Assembly: GCA_021813825.1 (NCBI GenBank)
Contig: JAKAJI010000010.1
Location: 1 to 37,329 of the forward strand
Source: Acidobacteriota bacterium
GTDB taxonomy: Bacteria; Acidobacteriota; Terriglobia; Bryobacterales; Bryobacteraceae
Reading direction: 5' to 3'
DNA: 37,329 nucleotides
Position 1 is the stretch's first letter. Every line of letters begins with the position of its first letter. Under the pieces are notes generated by a model that saw only the letters and a list, made by a program, of their open reading frames with translations, did not search any database and was not told the origin of the DNA. The position numbers were made by a program, and so were the translations under genes. Below, piece after piece: positions 15,845-24,594 of this stretch.

Positions 15845-15921
15845 GAGGCCCTCCTATTTGAAAGTGTAGAACGTGCCGGGTCACTGGCACGGCTCGCGTG
15901 CTAGCCTCGAAGGGAACGGAC

Positions 15922-18174
15922 TTGGGCGCCAATCTCGAGGCAGCCATTCTGGCCCACATTTCGAAGCAGCCGCACGGCCGTGCGTCGCTGAAGCAGCTTT
16001 ACCGCGAACTCGGCGCACGAGGCACGGAGCGGCGCGACCTCGATCTCGCTCTGGCGCGGTTGACGGCGCGGGGCGAACTGGTCGAGCCACGGCCCGGCCA
16101 ATACCTTTCGCCCGCCCAAAGCACGGAATACATCGCCGGCCGCCTTCGAATGCACCGCGACGGATTCGGCTTCGTCATTGCGGACCATCCGCCAGCAGGT
16201 ATTGAAGGGGACATCTACATTTCGCGCGAGGACGCGACGCGCGCCATGCACGGTGACCGCGTACTGGTGCGGCTTGGGCGCATCGAAAGTGACGGCCGCG
16301 CGTCGGGCTCCATCGTCAAGGTGCTGACCCGCGCGCACGCCACCGTGGTTGGCGAATTTCGCGTCACGCGGCGCGGGTGCGCGGTTGCGCCGCACGACGA
16401 TCGCATCCGGCAGTGGATCCGCATTCCCGAGGGGCTGGAACTGCCGCGCGAAACGCTTTCGGCGGACAGGGTCGGCGCGGCAACCACCGTACCCACGGAG
16501 CCCGCGGGTCTCGATGGCGCGATCGTTAACGTCGAGATCCTGGAGTTCCCGGAAGATGGCGAACCCGGCGTGGGGCGAGTGATCGAATTCCTCGGGTTTC
16601 CGGACGAATTTGGCGTCGACGTCGAGATCATAATTCGCAAGCACCATATTCCCCACCGGTTTCCGCATGACGTGCTCGCCGAAGCCGCGGCGGCGCCGGC
16701 TGAAGTCGTCGAAGCCGAGGTGCAGGACCGGCGCGATTTTCGTGCCTTCGACATTGTGACCATCGACGGAGAGACGGCGCGGGATTTCGACGACGCAGTA
16801 TGGGTAGACCGCCTGCCCAACGGGAACTTCGAACTTCACGTCCATATCGCGGATGTCAGCCACTATGTCGCACCCGGATCGGCGATTGACCGCGAAGCGC
16901 GTTTGCGCGGCACGAGCGTCTATTTCCCGGACCGCGCCGTGCCGATGCTTCCGGTCGAGCTGTCGACTGGAATCTGCTCGCTCAAGCCGATGGTCGACCG
17001 GCTTGTGGTTTCCGCATTGCTCGAGATCGACCCCCACGGCGACCTCGTCGCGCAGGAATTCACGCGGGGCATCATCCGAAGCGCGGCACGAATGACGTAC
17101 ACAGCCGTTCACGCGCTGCTCGAAGGCGATGCGTCACTGCGCGAACAATACGCTGCGCTGGCTCCGCGGTTCGAGCTGATGCGCGAATTGGCGTTGGCGT
17201 TGAACCGTAAGCGAACGCGGCGGGGTTCAATTGACTTTGACTTGCCGGAGCCGCTGATCGAATTCGACGAGTTCGGCGAGATGACCGGCGTCATTCGCGG
17301 TCCGCGCAACATCGCGCACCGCATCATCGAGGAGTTCATGCTGGCCGCGAATGAAGCCGTGGCCAGCCACCTGGAACATCTCGGCCGCGCGCTGCTGTTC
17401 CGCATCCACGAGCAGCCCGACCCGCGGCGCGTGGCGGAGTTTGACGAAGCCGCCGCGCAGTTCGGCTATTCGCTTGGTTTCAGGTCCGCACCGCGCCGCC
17501 GGGGTCCGCCGCAGCGCGAGCCTTCCGGAGGCGAAGTGACGTCGCGGACTTATCAGAGGCTGATTCGCAAGTTCGAGGGCAAACCGGAAGAGCGCATCCT
17601 AAGCTATCTGATGCTCCGGTCTCTGAAGCAAGCCCGTTACAGCGAGCAGAACCGCGGCCACTTCGCACTCGCCGCCGCAAGCTACACGCATTTCACCTCG
17701 CCGATCCGGCGTTATCCGGACCTGATCGTGCATCGCGCGCTCACCGCGGCCCTCGATCTCGCCGACGAGCCGTACGCGCTGTTCGATCTCCGCGCGATCG
17801 CCCAGGAGTCGTCCGAGGCTGAACGCCGCGCCGCGGAAGCTGAGCGGGATCTTGTCGAATGGAAGAAGGCGCGGTTCATGGAAGACCGCGTTGGTGAGGA
17901 GTTTCCCGCGATGATCCTGAACACGGCGAAATTCGGGTTCTTTGTTGAATTGCAGGATCTGTTCATCGAGGGCCTGGTTCCGATCGACACGCTGCCGGAC
18001 GAGCGGTTTCATTTTCACGAGGCGACGCGGAAGATCGTCGGCTCGCGCAGCCGGGTAACCTATTCGGCCGGGGACCGCGTGACGGTGCGGCTGGACCGAA
18101 TCGATCCGATCGACCACAAGCTCACGTTTGCCGTCGTCCCTCCCCCGTCCGCGCGGCGCCGCAAGAAGAAGTAA
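15922..18174 (+). CDS. rnr: Ribonuclease R (RNB-family 3'-5' exoribonuclease)
   Basis: Processive 3'-5' exoribonuclease that degrades structured RNA. Domains in order are an N-terminal winged-helix-like segment (ISKQPHGRASLKQLYREL), cold-shock domains (GRLRMHRDGFGFVIAD, GDRVLVRLG), the RNB catalytic domain with the metal-binding aspartates in DGETARDFDDAV, the conserved YTHFTSPIRRYPDL, and a C-terminal S1 domain (FVELQDLFIEGLVPID) with a basic RRRKKK tail. The TTG at 15922 has GAAGGGA (15909-15915) 6 nt upstream and gives 750 residues. A GTG at 15898 without a Shine-Dalgarno would add 8 residues. The next gene starts 10 nt after its stop. Confidence 0.95.
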   Translation: MGANLEAAILAHISKQPHGRASLKQLYRELGARGTERRDLDLALARLTARGELVEPRPGQYLSPAQSTEYIAGRLRMHRDGFGFVIADHPPAGIEGDIYISREDATRAMHGDRVLVRLGRIESDGRASGSIVKVLTRAHATVVGEFRVTRRGCAVAPHDDRIRQWIRIPEGLELPRETLSADRVGAATTVPTEPAGLDGAIVNVEILEFPEDGEPGVGRVIEFLGFPDEFGVDVEIIIRKHHIPHRFPHDVLAEAAAAPAEVVEAEVQDRRDFRAFDIVTIDGETARDFDDAVWVDRLPNGNFELHVHIADVSHYVAPGSAIDREARLRGTSVYFPDRAVPMLPVELSTGICSLKPMVDRLVVSALLEIDPHGDLVAQEFTRGIIRSAARMTYTAVHALLEGDASLREQYAALAPRFELMRELALALNRKRTRRGSIDFDLPEPLIEFDEFGEMTGVIRGPRNIAHRIIEEFMLAANEAVASHLEHLGRALLFRIHEQPDPRRVAEFDEAAAQFGYSLGFRSAPRRRGPPQREPSGGEVTSRTYQRLIRKFEGKPEERILSYLMLRSLKQARYSEQNRGHFALAAASYTHFTSPIRRYPDLIVHRALTAALDLADEPYALFDLRAIAQESSEAERRAAEAERDLVEWKKARFMEDRVGEEFPAMILNTAKFGFFVELQDLFIEGLVPIDTLPDERFHFHEATRKIVGSRSRVTYSAGDRVTVRLDRIDPIDHKLTFAVVPPPSARRRKKK

Positions 18175-18184
18175 TCTGTTTCTG

Positions 18185-18982
18185 ATGCGATTTGTTAGGG
18201 CAACTCTTACCGTCCTCCTCGCGCTGTGGGTGTGCTTCGTGGCGCTCATCTACCATCAGATGCTTCAGCCGCCCGGAGTTTTTGCGTCTTTTATGGCGAA
18301 GATGCCCGGCTTGGTGTTCCTTGTGCTCCCGTTCGAAACCTTGTGGACGCAGGCGCGGGCGGGCAACGCCTCGGTGGACACGATGGCGCCCGATTTTACG
18401 CTCACGCCGGTCCGCGGCGGACAGCCGGTTCATCTTGCCTCCCTGCGCGGCGTACGTCCGGTTGTGCTGGTTTTTGGGAGCTACACTTGACCGCCTTTCC
18501 GGCGGGAGGTTCCCGTCCTGAACGAGATGTATCGGAAGTACAAGGACCGCGTGGCGTTCTACATCGTCTACATTCAGGAGGCGCATGCGAGCGACTTCTG
18601 GCAGATGCCGGACAACATCCGGCAAGGAGTGATTTTCCGGAATCCGACGACGCTCGTTGCCCGGGAAGCGGTGGCGGGAAGCTGTGTGCGCAAGCTGCAC
18701 ATCGCGATTCCCGCGTTACTCGACGGCATGGATAACCGCGTGGAAGCAGAGTACAAGGGTTGGCCGGACCGGCTCTACTTGATCGACGCGCAAGGGCGGA
18801 TTGTATTCCGGAGCAAGCCCGGGCCGTTCGGTTTCCATCCGCGTGACATGGAACCCCTGCTCGACCAAGTGGCCGCGGAGAAGTTAAGCCTTGGGATGCG
18901 CCCGGTCGTACTCGGCCATCAGGTCGGTGAGCGAGAGTTGGGTGTAGCGCTGGGTAGTGGACAGACTCGCATGGCCGAGTAG
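18185..18982 (+). CDS. Iodothyronine-deiodinase-like membrane selenoprotein; UGA at 18488-18490 read as selenocysteine
   Basis: The frame from ATG 18185 is interrupted only by TGA at codon 102 and continues open to TAG at 18980-18982 (265 residues if Sec is inserted). There is an N-terminal membrane anchor (LTVLLALWVCFVALIYH), then a thioredoxin-fold domain (TMAPDFTLTPV, VVLVFGSYT-U-PPF). The UGA falls exactly where deiodinases have Sec (SCT-U-PSF in vertebrate enzymes). The family block YIQEAHASD follows ~35 residues later, and DRLYLIDAQGRIVFRS with GPFGFHP near the C terminus. Family members perform reductive dehalogenation or thioredoxin-like redox chemistry; the bacterial substrate is unknown. 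A hairpin (18501-18517) lies at SECIS distance. The last 99 nt are antisense to the end of xerC. Start lacks a clear Shine-Dalgarno; it is 10 nt after rnr. Confidence 0.88.
18501..18517 (+). promoter_or_regulatory. Candidate bacterial SECIS hairpin for the UGA at 18488
   Basis: GGCGGGA (18501-18507) pairs with TCCCGTC (18511-18517), one pair being G-U, around the loop GGT. Opening the last A-U pair gives a 5-nt loop, AGGTT. The apical loop begins about 17 nt after the UGA and carries a G in its first two positions. As generally described, bacterial SECIS elements have a loop 16-37 nt after the UGA with such a G. A competing hairpin, CCGCC-TTTCC-GGCGG, lies at 18491-18505. Not folded computationally. 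Confidence 0.55.
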
Positions 18983-19783
18983 CTCCTGAATGGCGCGTAA
19001 ATCGGCGCCGTCGGCGAGCAAGTGTGTCGCGTAGGCGTGGCGAAAGCTGTGCGGATGGAGCGAGGAGTCGCCACTGAGGGCAATCGCGTAGAGCTTTACG
19101 ATTCCGCGGGCGCCGCGATCTGTGAGTTTACCGCCGCGCGCGTTCAAAAACAGGGCCCGCTCGGCGGGGTCACGCGGCAACCGGTTCTCCAGGTATCGCA
19201 CCAGGGCTTCCTCGACCTTCGCGCCGTAAGGAACCTCGCGCTCCTTGCTTCCTTTGCCACGGACGCGCAGCCAACGCTCGTCGCGGTCGAAGTCTTCGAG
19301 TTTCAGGCCGACCAACTCGCTGATTCGCAGCCCGCAGCCATACAGTAACTCGAACAGCAGCCGGTCGCGGGCAGGGAACGGGCGTTCGAGTTTGTTTGTG
19401 GATACCGCATCGATGAGTTGATTGGTGGTTTCGGCGTTCGGCACGCTGGGAGCGAGTTTGGGCGCGCGGGGCGTCCGCACTCTCTTTGCCGCGTTCGCGG
19501 GAACCTCGCCGCGGCGATGGAGGAAGCCGAAGAGACCCCGCACGGCGGCAAGCTTGCGGCGGATGGTGATGGCGCTTAGGCTCTGGGCGTAGAGGTTACC
19601 CATCCACTCGCGAAATTCGAGCGTGCCGAAGGCGGCCGGCGCCGGTGGCGCGCCCTCGGGCGGAGAAAAGTAGGTCAGAAACTCGCGCAGGTCGGCGCCG
19701 TAATTGCGCACCGTGTGGGCGGAAGCGTTGCGCCGCCGGAGTTCGTCGAGATAAGCGTCAATGGCTTCGCCCAGCGGGCTCAT
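18884..19783 (-). CDS. xerC: Tyrosine recombinase XerC
   Basis: Site-specific recombinase that with XerD resolves chromosome dimers at dif. The 299-residue protein has an N-terminal SAM-like core-binding domain (YLDELRRRNASAHTVRNYGA) and a C-terminal catalytic domain. Catalytic residues are visible: R in YGCGLRISELVGL, K in RGKGSKEREVP, H-x-x-R in HPHSFRHAYATHLL, H in ELLGHASLSTTQ and the nucleophile Y in QRYTQL. The ATG at 19783 overlaps the trmFO stop (ATGA), which decides the start; an upstream extension to 19834 is open but would lie inside trmFO. trmFO-xerC adjacency is also known in Bacillus (gid-codV), supporting XerC rather than a phage integrase. Confidence 0.93.
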   Translation of the reverse strand: MSPLGEAIDAYLDELRRRNASAHTVRNYGADLREFLTYFSPPEGAPPAPAAFGTLEFREWMGNLYAQSLSAITIRRKLAAVRGLFGFLHRRGEVPANAAKRVRTPRAPKLAPSVPNAETTNQLIDAVSTNKLERPFPARDRLLFELLYGCGLRISELVGLKLEDFDRDERWLRVRGKGSKEREVPYGAKVEEALVRYLENRLPRDPAERALFLNARGGKLTDRGARGIVKLYAIALSGDSSLHPHSFRHAYATHLLADGADLRAIQELLGHASLSTTQRYTQLSLTDLMAEYDRAHPKA

Positions 19784-21114
19784 CGGACTTCGGCGGAAAG
19801 CATCGCGTCGAGGCTTTCGAGCGCCCTCCGGCAAATGGCGGCGTGGCGTGCGCGCCGGTCTCGTCCGAGTCGGATCCGCTCCGCCTCTTCGAGCGGTGGC
19901 AGCAGGTCAAAGGTGATGTTGGCGGGCTGATAGTTCGATGGGTCTGCACCCGAGACATAAGCGCACAGCGAGCCGAGAGCGGTTTCGCGCGGAAAGGGAA
20001 CCACCGGTTCCTCCTGCGCGAGTGCCGCCGCGCTCCGCCCGGCGATGAGTCCGGTGGCGATGGATTCGACGTACCCTTCGACGCCGGAGATCTGGCCGGC
20101 GAAGAAGATCTCCGGCCGGGAGCGCAGTTGCAGCGTGGGCTTGAGCAGCGAGGGCGCGTTGATATACGTGTTGCGATGCACCTGGCCGTAGCGCAGGAAC
20201 ACGGCCTGTTCCAGGCCTGGGATCAGGCGGAACACGCGCTGCTGTTCCTCGAAGCGAATGTGGTTCTGGAAGCCGACCAAGTTGTAGCTTTCCGCGCGCA
20301 GGTTCTCCTGGCGCAACTGCACCACGGCGTACGGCCGGCGTCCGGTGCGCGGGTCGGTCAGCCCCATTGGCTTCATGGGACCAAAGCGCAGCGTGTCGCG
20401 TCCGCGGCGGGCGAGTTCTTCAATCGGCAGGCAGGCTTCGAAGAATTTTGGGTGGTCTTCGGGGATATGCGACGGCGCGCTCCGCGCGGCTAGCACCTCA
20501 TCAACGAACCGCTCGTATTCTTCGCGGTTGAGCGGGCAATTCAGGTAATCGTCGGAGCCGTCGATCGACTTGCCATAGCGAGAGGCGGCGAAGACGATGC
20601 CGCGGTCGATGGTGGACGCATCCACGATCGGGCTGATGCTGTCGTAGAAAAACAGGCGGTTGGTTCCCGTGAGGCGGCTGATGTCTTCGGCGAGCGCGCC
20701 GGAGGTGAGCGGACCGGTGGCGACGATGACGATTCCCTCGCGCGGGATTTCACGAACTTCGCCACGAACGACGTCAATGCGCGGGTTGCCCGTGACTGCT
20801 CGCGTGGCTTCTTCGGCGAAGATGTCGCGATCGACGGTGAGCGCCTGCCCGCCGGGGACACGCGCCCGCGCGGCGGCATCGAGCAGGGCCGAACCCATGC
20901 GCCGCAATTCTTCTTTGAGCAGCCAAGGTGCGGTATCGGCGCTTTCACTCTTCAGCGAGTTACTGCAGACCAGTTCGGCGAAACGGTCCGTCTTATGCGC
21001 GGATGTGCTCATGAGAGGACGCATCTCATGGAGAGTGCAATCGAGGCCCGCACGAGCGACTTGCAAGGCCGCCTCGACACCCGCTAATCCGCCGCCTAAA
21101 ATCGCAATTCGCAC
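19780..21114 (-). CDS. trmFO: Folate/FAD-dependent tRNA m5U54 methyltransferase TrmFO
   Basis: Makes 5-methyluridine at position 54 in the tRNA T-loop using methylene-tetrahydrofolate and FAD. The 444-residue protein begins with the FAD-binding motif ILGGGLAGVEAA (residues 5-16). It has the family block LVCSNSLKSE with C50 and FEACLPIEE with C228, equivalent in position to the two functionally important cysteines described for TrmFO. It also has PMKPMGLTDPRTG and ISGVEGYVESIATG. Translation starts at GTG 21114. It overlaps xerC by 4 nt downstream and is divergent from the Tat oxidoreductase gene at 21168, with only 53 nt between them. Confidence 0.97.
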   Translation of the reverse strand: MRIAILGGGLAGVEAALQVARAGLDCTLHEMRPLMSTSAHKTDRFAELVCSNSLKSESADTAPWLLKEELRRMGSALLDAAARARVPGGQALTVDRDIFAEEATRAVTGNPRIDVVRGEVREIPREGIVIVATGPLTSGALAEDISRLTGTNRLFFYDSISPIVDASTIDRGIVFAASRYGKSIDGSDDYLNCPLNREEYERFVDEVLAARSAPSHIPEDHPKFFEACLPIEELARRGRDTLRFGPMKPMGLTDPRTGRRPYAVVQLRQENLRAESYNLVGFQNHIRFEEQQRVFRLIPGLEQAVFLRYGQVHRNTYINAPSLLKPTLQLRSRPEIFFAGQISGVEGYVESIATGLIAGRSAAALAQEEPVVPFPRETALGSLCAYVSGADPSNYQPANITFDLLPPLEEAERIRLGRDRRARHAAICRRALESLDAMLSAEVR

Positions 21115-22399: not shown

Positions 22400-23452
22400 A
22401 TGGAACTACGGCAACTTGGCAAGTCCGGGCTGATGGTCCCGGTTCTCTCCTTCGGTACCGGCACCTTCGGCGGGCGCGGTGAGCTATTCCAAGCCTGGGG
22501 CGCCACCGAGGTGGAGGAGGCCCGGCGATTCGTGGGCATCTGTCTCGACGCCGGCGTCAACCTGTTTGATACGGCGAACGCTTATTCGGCGGGACGCTCG
22601 GAGGAGATCCTCGGCGAAGCGGTTCAGGGGCGGCGGCATCAACTTCTGATTGCTACGAAGGCCTTCTTCCGGATGGGCGAGCATCCAAACGAAGGTGGAA
22701 CTTCGCGCTATCACCTGATCGCCGCCTGCGAAGCGAGCCTGAAGCGGTTACGAACCGATTACATCGACCTTTACCAGATGCACTGCTTCGACGCGATGCC
22801 TCCGGTGGAGGAAACACTTCGCGCGTTGGACGACCTGGTGACCGCCGGGAAGGTGCGCTACATCGGCGCGTCGAATTTCTCGGGCTGGCACATGATGAAG
22901 TCGCTCATGACCAGCGACCGCTACGGATGGTCGCGCTACGTCGCGCACCAGGTTTACTATTCGCTGATCGGTCGCGAGTATGAATGGGAACTGATGCCGC
23001 TCGGGCACGATCAAGGCGTGGGAGCGCTGATCTGGAGTCCGCTTGGCTGGAGCCGGCTGACGGGCAAGATCCGCCGCGGCCAACCTGCGCCCGGCTCCGG
23101 ACGCCTGCCCAAGACCGCACAGTACGGACCGCCGGTGGATGAGAACCTGCTGTTCAACGTGGTTGACGCGCTTGATGAAGTGGCGAAGGAGACCGGAAAA
23201 TCGATCCCGCAGATCGCGCTGAACTGGCTGATCCAGCGGCCTACGGTCTCCTCCGTCATCATGGGAGCGCGCAATGAGCAGCAGTTGCGCGACAACCTGG
23301 GCGCGGCGGGATGGAAACTCACGCCGGAGCAGATATCGAAACTGGATGCGGCTAGCGATGTGACGCCGGTTTATCCCTACTGGCACCAGCGCCAGACGGC
23401 TTCGGACCGGAACCCTCCTCTGGTTGGGCCGGGGGCCGCAGTTCAGCGCTAG
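22400..23452 (+). CDS. Aldo/keto reductase, potassium-channel beta-subunit-like (second copy)
   Basis: NADPH-dependent oxidoreductase, 350 residues, cytoplasmic by lack of a signal. The tetrad is complete: D57 and Y62 (NLFDTANAYSAG), K87 (IATKAF), H128 (YQMHCFD). The cofactor end IMGARNEQQLRDNLGAA is present. It is a full-length paralogue of the protein at 5456-6487, sharing the ending YPYWHQR with RNPPL close behind. The ATG at 22400 follows the Gfo/Idh/MocA stop by 17 nt. The stop overlaps the convergent redoxin gene by 4 nt. The frame is open further upstream, but that part lies inside the previous gene. Confidence 0.92.
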   Translation: MELRQLGKSGLMVPVLSFGTGTFGGRGELFQAWGATEVEEARRFVGICLDAGVNLFDTANAYSAGRSEEILGEAVQGRRHQLLIATKAFFRMGEHPNEGGTSRYHLIAACEASLKRLRTDYIDLYQMHCFDAMPPVEETLRALDDLVTAGKVRYIGASNFSGWHMMKSLMTSDRYGWSRYVAHQVYYSLIGREYEWELMPLGHDQGVGALIWSPLGWSRLTGKIRRGQPAPGSGRLPKTAQYGPPVDENLLFNVVDALDEVAKETGKSIPQIALNWLIQRPTVSSVIMGARNEQQLRDNLGAAGWKLTPEQISKLDAASDVTPVYPYWHQRQTASDRNPPLVGPGAAVQR

Positions 23453-24594
23453 CGCGAATTCCAATAGGCCTGCTGGCCGATGTAATCATCGTCGGGCAGA
23501 TGACGGAGAATCAACCGGCGGAGTTCCAAGGGGTCGGCGGCGCCTTGGGTGGAAAATAAGACCGCGCCGCCGGGCCCGAGAAGCACGGTGTACGGGACCC
23601 CGCCGTTCCACTTCGGGTCGAAGGCCGCCATCATGGCGTATGTGTCGTCGCTTGAGAAAAGGAGATTGCGGCTGGTGGCGTGCTGTCGCTCGAGAAAGGC
23701 GAAGACGCCTTTACGTTCATCAGGGAACTGGGCGGCGACCGTGACCAGGTCGAACGCCCGCTTGCCGTACATTCGGTACATCTTCTCGAACTCGGGGAAC
23801 TCTTCGACGCAGGGCCCGCACCAGGTTGTCCAGAAATCGACAAGCACCACTTTGGCGGAGGTGTTCCCGCGTAACGCGCTAAGTTCTGCGGCGGAAGCCA
23901 TGTCGAGCTTCACCGGTTGGGCGTTGATCTTGAGGAGTTCTTCAGCTTGGCCGCCTTTCGTTGACCATTTGATGGAGCAGCCCATGGTGGGGCGAACGGG
24001 GTTTGCCACGGGTTTACCGGCGAGCAAGGCGTCGATGGCGTCGCGAGCGTCGTGAATTCGGGCGAGGTTCTCGCGCATGCTCGAGTCGACACGGCCCTGG
24101 TAGCGCAGCCTGCGCTGAGCGTCAAAGATGAACACGTGCGGCGTCGAAACCGGGCCATACGCACGGGCTACGCTCTGTGTGGCGCCGTCATATAGATAGG
24201 GAAAGTTGAACTGCCGGTAGGCGGCGCGGATCTTCATCTCATCGAGAGAATCGCCCACATCGGTATAACCCATCTCATCGAGCCGGACGGCTTTCGGGTC
24301 GTTCGGCTGGATGGCCACAAGCGCCACGCCCTTGTCCTGATAATCGGCGGCGAGTTGCTTGATGCGGCCTTCGTAAAGCTGCGCGGTGGGGCAGTGGTCA
24401 CACGTGAAAACGACGACGAGGATCTTGGCCGAGTTGTAGTCGGCCAGCGAGTGCATTTTGCCATCGATGCCCGGCAGGTGAAAATCCGGGGCCGGAGAAC
24501 CGATCGCGAGCGTAGGCACTGTTTCTGCGCCGACAACGGAGACAGCGATCAGTGCCGTGAGAATCAGCGTGGCCATTCTCGAGACGAGTTTCAT
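23449..24594 (-). CDS. Exported two-domain thioredoxin-fold protein (AhpC/TSA-like plus TlpA-like)
   Basis: A 381-residue periplasmic redox protein. A signal peptide (LILTALIAVSVVGA, cut near AGAET) is followed by a first redoxin domain (PAPDFHLPGIDGKMHSLADY) whose active-site-like motif is FTCDHCPTA. The second thioredoxin/TlpA domain has the canonical LVDFWTTWCGPCVEEFP. Two different CxxC motifs in one chain suggest a thiol relay or combined peroxide/disulfide handling; the substrate is not predictable. The start is an ATG at 24592-24594. The gene converges on the aldo/keto reductase, overlapping it by 4 nt, and is divergent from the HTH-like membrane protein at 24663. Confidence 0.9.
   Translation of the reverse strand: MKLVSRMATLILTALIAVSVVGAETVPTLAIGSPAPDFHLPGIDGKMHSLADYNSAKILVVVFTCDHCPTAQLYEGRIKQLAADYQDKGVALVAIQPNDPKAVRLDEMGYTDVGDSLDEMKIRAAYRQFNFPYLYDGATQSVARAYGPVSTPHVFIFDAQRRLRYQGRVDSSMRENLARIHDARDAIDALLAGKPVANPVRPTMGCSIKWSTKGGQAEELLKINAQPVKLDMASAAELSALRGNTSAKVVLVDFWTTWCGPCVEEFPEFEKMYRMYGKRAFDLVTVAAQFPDERKGVFAFLERQHATSRNLLFSSDDTYAMMAAFDPKWNGGVPYTVLLGPGGAVLFSTQGAADPLELRRLILRHLPDDDYIGQQAYWNSR

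Follow-up and report, generated by a model that had tools for sequence, protein, structure and literature searches.

Evidence for a deiodinase-family selenoprotein gene with a conserved in-frame UGA and downstream hairpin in Acidobacteriota

Bacterial relatives of the iodothyronine deiodinases, in both selenocysteine (Sec) and Cys forms, were described from the Sargasso Sea in 2005 (PMC1088965), which bears out the statement in an initial annotation of the DNA studied here that Sec-containing deiodinase-like proteins had already been reported in bacteria. Reviews list these selenoproteins as UxxC proteins with no known function (PMC9312934, PMC13188914), and the literature that we searched contained no characterised bacterial deiodinase-family enzyme. 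The gene analyzed below lies in a stretch of 37,329 nucleotides (the window), contig C85 of a 5.1-Mb MAG (563 contigs; completeness, 94.6%), whose nearest named relatives in a scan of public genomes are Bryobacterales/Acidobacteria MAGs. Its protein is a new branch of the already known bacterial deiodinase-like selenoproteins, with which it shares a Sec at the deiodinase active site, the PF00837 domain and a bacterial SECIS directly after the UGA. Unlike the tabulated UxxC proteins, from which this motif sets it apart, it has U-P-P-F, with no Cys at +3 and an invariant Cys at +65. Its branch further departs from the tabulated description in its N-terminal membrane anchor, its occurrence in Acidobacteriota and, in part of the loci, its linkage to selA-selB.

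The gene occupies positions 18185 to 18982 of the plus strand and, as judged from frame, profile and homologues, encodes 265 residues with Sec at position 102. The UGA (18488 to 18490) lies in a GSYT-U-PPF motif within the sequence VFGSYT-U-PPFRREVP, and its reading as Sec is supported by the frame, its conservation and a downstream hairpin. Translation confirmed the earlier claim of a frame open except for TGA at codon 102, the sole internal stop. Since selenocysteine is encoded by a stop codon, the gene is hidden from standard callers, which end it at codon 101; it illustrates how an enzyme family may escape notice despite strong conservation. Directly upstream, 10 bases apart, is rnr (RNase R; 15898 to 18174, plus strand; identified by profile search and locus comparison), which is the upstream gene in seven loci, those of the window and six relatives. 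At the 3′ end, a convergent gene for a XerC-like tyrosine recombinase (18884 to 19834, minus strand) overlaps the selenoprotein gene by 99 bases. The last ~32 codons run antisense to the terminal part of the xerC-like gene and are predicted to be disordered in the structure model; apart from the window, just its two nearest relatives have them. In the overlap (18884 to 18982), the other homologues stop ~30 codons earlier than these three. Among the genes neighbouring the selenoprotein gene, none indicates halogen metabolism, and the plasmid records searched yielded two remote matches only. Elsewhere in the window, the minus strand encodes a protein with two tandem AhpC/TSA-Redoxin-type stretches (23449 to 24594).

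Both sequence and predicted fold support the assignment to the deiodinases made in the initial annotation. PF00837 (T4_deiodinase) matches residues 63 to 228, across the TGA, with an E value of 1e-26 and 94.1 bits against a curated cut-off of 27, and the read-through product matches mouse Dio3 (4tr3; E = 3e-17; 33% identity over 144 residues) and Dio2 (9h48; E = 5e-15). The NCBIfam model NF038285 (“deiodinase family protein”) covers the same domain (profile positions 177 to 338 of 347) and has a longer N-terminal part; its score of 197 bits is under its cut-off of 250. In Foldseek searches with the model, Dio2 and Dio3 took ranks 1 and 2 (TM by target, 0.77 and 0.71, respectively), with ResA next. 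The YIQEAHASD, DRLYLIDAQGRIVF and GPFGFHP blocks noted earlier are present and align with few gaps in the order and spacing of Dio3/Dio2. The comparison that had been drawn with an SCT-U-P motif stands as regards Sec position, order and spacing, but the actual motif is GSYT-U-PPF, and because Tyr stands where Dio1/Dio3 have Cys, the “proximal Cys” is absent. Like Dio1-3, the protein has a membrane anchor, a thioredoxin fold and the GSxT-U-PPF, EAH, omega-loop Trp, acidic-Arg pair and GP motifs. In contrast to them, it is without the proximal Cys (Tyr100 in the aligned column) and the distal-column Cys (Ile175 in the column of Dio3 Cys239), has Pro in place of the relay His and is predicted to face the periplasm.

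The UGA was then followed through two sets of homologues. In the close set, comprising the window's genome and 40 relatives, a related gene was found in 16 genomes. TGA occupies the same codon in 12 genes from 11 of the 40 relatives, one of these genes being frameshifted further on; one other relative (G012) has GGA in its place. In the public scan, all loci retained (the best 80 of 266 relatives, all labelled Acidobacteriota) have TGA at the codon 102 equivalent (80/80). Since the two sets share genomes, statistics were based on 85 distinct genes, in all of which TGA is kept and conservation runs continuously across it, the residues 3′ of the TGA being as conserved as those 5′ of it. The six Cys codons (TGC/TGT) seen at the Sec position all come from a separate, TPR-fused paralogue. 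As to whether homologues have Sec or Cys at residue 102, a check suggested in the initial annotation, the answer is thus TGA in the 85 genes and Cys in the TPR paralogues; rather than another frame with conservation ending at the UGA, close relatives retain the reading frame, the UGA and the sequence that follows.

The GGA (Gly) codon of G012 (locus L035, minus strand, stretch 1920 to 1861) is accompanied by an intact SECIS hairpin and a tRNA-Sec with anticodon tca. It represents either a recent loss or a mistake in sequencing; recoding of Sec by a sense codon in this genome was rejected because its tRNA-Sec has this usual anticodon. In another relative (G016; L040/L045), the deiodinase gene is frameshifted just 3′ of the SECIS, and a third (G032) carries two UGA-containing deiodinase paralogues (L034 and L041).

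A hairpin follows the UGA at 18501 to 18518 (plus strand), with a GGU loop at 18508 to 18510. Numbered from the UGA, it reads G11 N12 CGGG A-GGU-U CCCG N26 N27 C28, with the pairs G11-C28, N12-N27, C13-G25, G14-C24, G15-C23, G16-C22 and A17-U21, a bulge at 26 and the GGU triloop at +18 to +20. Codons 5 to 8 after the UGA are CGG (85/85), GAG (85/85), GTT (79 of 80 Val codons) and CCC (81/85). These codons make up 100, 100, 99 and 95% of same-residue codons at the hairpin in the 85 genes, as against 24, 58, 16 and 33% in the remainder of those genes. Both partners of pair 12-27 are silent third codon positions, and the pair is G-C in 35 genes, C-G in 36, G-U in 10 and unpaired in 4 (n = 85). 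Three switches of this pair fall on well-supported branches of a tree built without the hairpin codons; all are concordant, a number too small for a formal sign test. We discarded an alternative register that lacks the bulge at +26, as its two outer pairs form in 46 to 47 of the 85 genes versus 81 to 85 with the bulge. The distant acidobacterial homologues differ in stem sequence, but most, though not all, again place a G(G)U hairpin loop at +15 to +22; our in-house hairpin scan, which demanded a G(G)U loop, missed the GGC-loop members L145 and L157.

Folding of the single sequence over the 51 bases after the UGA gave no standout signal (z = 0.34), and the per-gene test against synonymous recoding was modest (p = 0.019 for the window); the case for a SECIS therefore rests on comparison. 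An Rfam search around the gene gave no match. A genome-wide pattern search recovered the gene's own hairpin and otherwise only matches with one or two mismatches, 21 in total versus 9 in the reversed control. The selD gene of the same genome (L020, G000:C425) has an in-frame TGA at its active-site position, and after this TGA comes a 7-bp hairpin that has an A-GGU-U top and its GGU loop at +21. The sharing of this top by selD and the deiodinase gene (dio) is consistent with one SelB reading both. Taken together, the codon invariance, the covariation and the selD motif provide comparative support for a putative bacterial SECIS hairpin after the UGA.

A search of the genome for the selenocysteine machinery, as proposed in the initial annotation, was successful in part: a tRNA-Sec with anticodon tca is on contig C98, selD is on C425 and selA is split between C419 and C205, the latter holding its N-terminal part, but selB was not found in the 563 contigs, even with a congener's SelB as the query. 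A match of EF-Tu strength was likewise absent from the MAG in that search. A selB gene is present in all three congeners; of the 41 genomes searched, 35 have one above the curated cut-off and 38 have a strong SelB or EF-Tu-type match. Because the EF-Tu match is also missing and all three congeners have selB, the gap in this MAG is probably one of assembly, though this falls short of proof. In the public set, 13 loci have selB immediately 5′ of dio, and in 10 of these selA precedes selB (selA-selB-dio). Two cultured relatives that carry the gene, Occallatibacter savannae AB23 (L110) and Acidicapsa dinghuensis 4GSKX (L124), have this three-gene arrangement. The acidobacterial branch is widespread and often adjoins genes of the selenocysteine machinery.

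On these comparative grounds the locus very probably encodes a functional deiodinase-family selenoprotein, as regards both its identity and its decoding. That the TGA is a true stop, leaving a decaying gene or two short proteins, is very improbable: standard translation does terminate at codon 101, and one relative has GGA and another a frameshift, but exactly TGA is kept in 85 distinct genes together with a hairpin maintained for it at silent sites, conservation is equal on both sides of the TGA, and Sec machinery is present. The likelihood is smaller still, indeed negligible, that a sequencing or assembly error produced TGA from a TGC/TGT Cys codon; the MAG is in many contigs and a Cys paralogue exists, but the same TGA recurs in dozens of independent assemblies, including those of named strains. 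On the conserved TGA and the silent-site covariation we rejected chance read-through, a pseudogene and assembly error, the last of these being refuted for the family as a whole.

The residues of the protein were surveyed in 89 homologous sequences, a few of which came from the same genomes twice. A transmembrane anchor is predicted at residues 4 to 24 (18194 to 18256, plus strand) by hydropathy and by a helix at residues 2 to 27 of the model. An N-terminal hydrophobic segment is found in 89/89 sequences, with a mean net charge of +3.2 before it and +0.5 after it. Since the N terminus is positive ahead of a single hydrophobic segment, the catalytic domain is predicted to lie outside with the N terminus in; a single N-terminal anchor with the domain on the periplasmic side is likely. 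The earlier description as a membrane-anchored selenoprotein, rather than two fragments, thus agrees with an anchor predicted throughout the survey, with the conserved UGA, frame and hairpin, and with the presence of tRNA-Sec, selA and selD. The deiodinase domain (residues 63 to 228; 18371 to 18868, plus strand) has a predicted thioredoxin fold, as indicated by PF00837, the model and Foldseek. In the AlphaFold2 model (13 sequences; mean pLDDT, 78.6), Sec follows a core strand and opens a helix, the arrangement seen in thioredoxin folds; an EAHxSDxW loop after beta-2 was found, with low model confidence there (54 to 67).

Y100, T101, U102, P103, P104, F105, E132, H134, W139, C167, D195 and R196 are invariant in all 89 sequences, as is GSxT-U-P, with its Thr preceding Sec. 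T101 corresponds to Dio1 Thr125, which is essential, and E132 to Dio1 Glu156, a proposed proton relay (PMC9141512). E132-A133-H134 (18578 to 18586, plus strand) is by alignment the counterpart of Dio3 Glu200/His202. D195-R196 corresponds to the Glu-Arg pair of Dio2, for which a role in gripping the substrate by its amino and carboxylate groups has been proposed (PMC11592359), R196 (18770 to 18772, plus strand) aligning with the substrate-site Arg226. C167 (18683 to 18685, plus strand), a second redox-capable residue at Sec +65, recurs in the Cys paralogues. Pro154, present in 88/89 sequences, occupies the column of the solvent-side relay His (Dio3 His219/Dio1 His174).

We propose that the UGA at 18488 is read as Sec by the ordinary bacterial route, with tRNA-Sec charged via SelA and SelD and delivered by SelB bound to the SECIS hairpin, which starts 11 bases after the UGA. 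One N-terminal helix would then anchor the protein, and its charge distribution would place the thioredoxin-fold domain in the periplasm, where the selenolate of Sec102, at the helix start, could attack an electrophilic atom of the substrate. Going by the alignment, Thr101 and Glu132 would be positioned for proton delivery as proposed for Dio1/Dio3, and Asp195/Arg196 might hold the amino acid end of a substrate as proposed for Dio2. The oxidised Sec could be re-reduced by way of the invariant Cys167 or by an external thiol. As for the electrophile, our leading but tentative guess is a ring-bound halogen in the aromatics of soil organic matter; a peroxide comes just behind it and is somewhat more doubtful, and a protein disulphide is unlikely. 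Pro154 in place of the relay His, Tyr100 in place of the proximal Cys and Ile175 in the distal-Cys column all speak against deiodination chemistry.

In the peroxide case, the same selenoprotein would be a membrane-tethered peroxide reductase, akin to a 1-Sec peroxiredoxin or GPx, in which H2O2 or a lipid peroxide oxidises Sec102 to a selenenic acid that Cys167 or a thiol reduces. We regard this as possible, on somewhat less than even terms: the profile search also hit AhpC-TSA and Redoxin (E = 1e-9 and 6e-8), the 1-Cys peroxiredoxin AhpE appears lower in the Foldseek list, and the invariant Cys167 could resolve Sec. However, the deiodinase profiles and structures score better, and the invariant EAH...W loop and D-R pair exceed what a peroxidase needs. 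A ResA/CcmG-type thiol-disulphide oxidoreductase acting on periplasmic proteins would account for the single N-terminal anchor and the ResA-like core (ResA TM, 0.82 to 0.88 by target length). It is a rather improbable reading, as the second Cys of U/C-x-x-C is missing, +3 being Phe105 in 89/89 homologues, and sequence similarity to ResA is weak (E = 8e-6). We lean toward chemistry resembling that of a dehalogenase and rate peroxide reduction as almost equally probable.

The same genomes (L037-L044) also encode a TPR protein that probably begins with a signal peptide and bears, at its C terminus behind the repeats, a deiodinase domain with Cys in place of Sec; the window's own genome has it as well, split over contigs C158 and C213. 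Its deiodinase domain is 40 to 45% identical and has the same EAH motif and an equivalent of Cys167; it differs in having Cys rather than Sec and TPR repeats rather than a membrane anchor. In a small tree, this form joins the window's group with weak support (84/84), a position that would point to a change from Sec to Cys in it. The animal Dio2/Dio3 domains fall with another acidobacterial U-P-P-F group, a placement that is not fully supported (94/92), with the window's group beside them. As the sampling was confined to Acidobacteriota and two animal domains, we make no claim from this tree on the origin of animal deiodinases.

A more far-reaching scenario, speculative and doubtful in its entirety, would be that of an acidobacterial periplasmic, Sec-dependent reductive dehalogenase that removes iodine or bromine from soil aromatics and is often encoded in a selA-selB-dio cluster, with the animal deiodinases descending from the bacterial U-P-P-F type. 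The homologues gathered here open up a large, clearly bounded set of bacterial U-P-P-F deiodinase relatives, some of them in named strains, which makes testable both the role of the bacterial deiodinase-like selenoproteins and the question of which bacterial branch gave rise to the animal enzymes. Two members from other Acidobacteriota (L153 and L157), in a group nearer the animal deiodinases, have FGSCT-U-PPF, identical to the active-site motif of Dio3.
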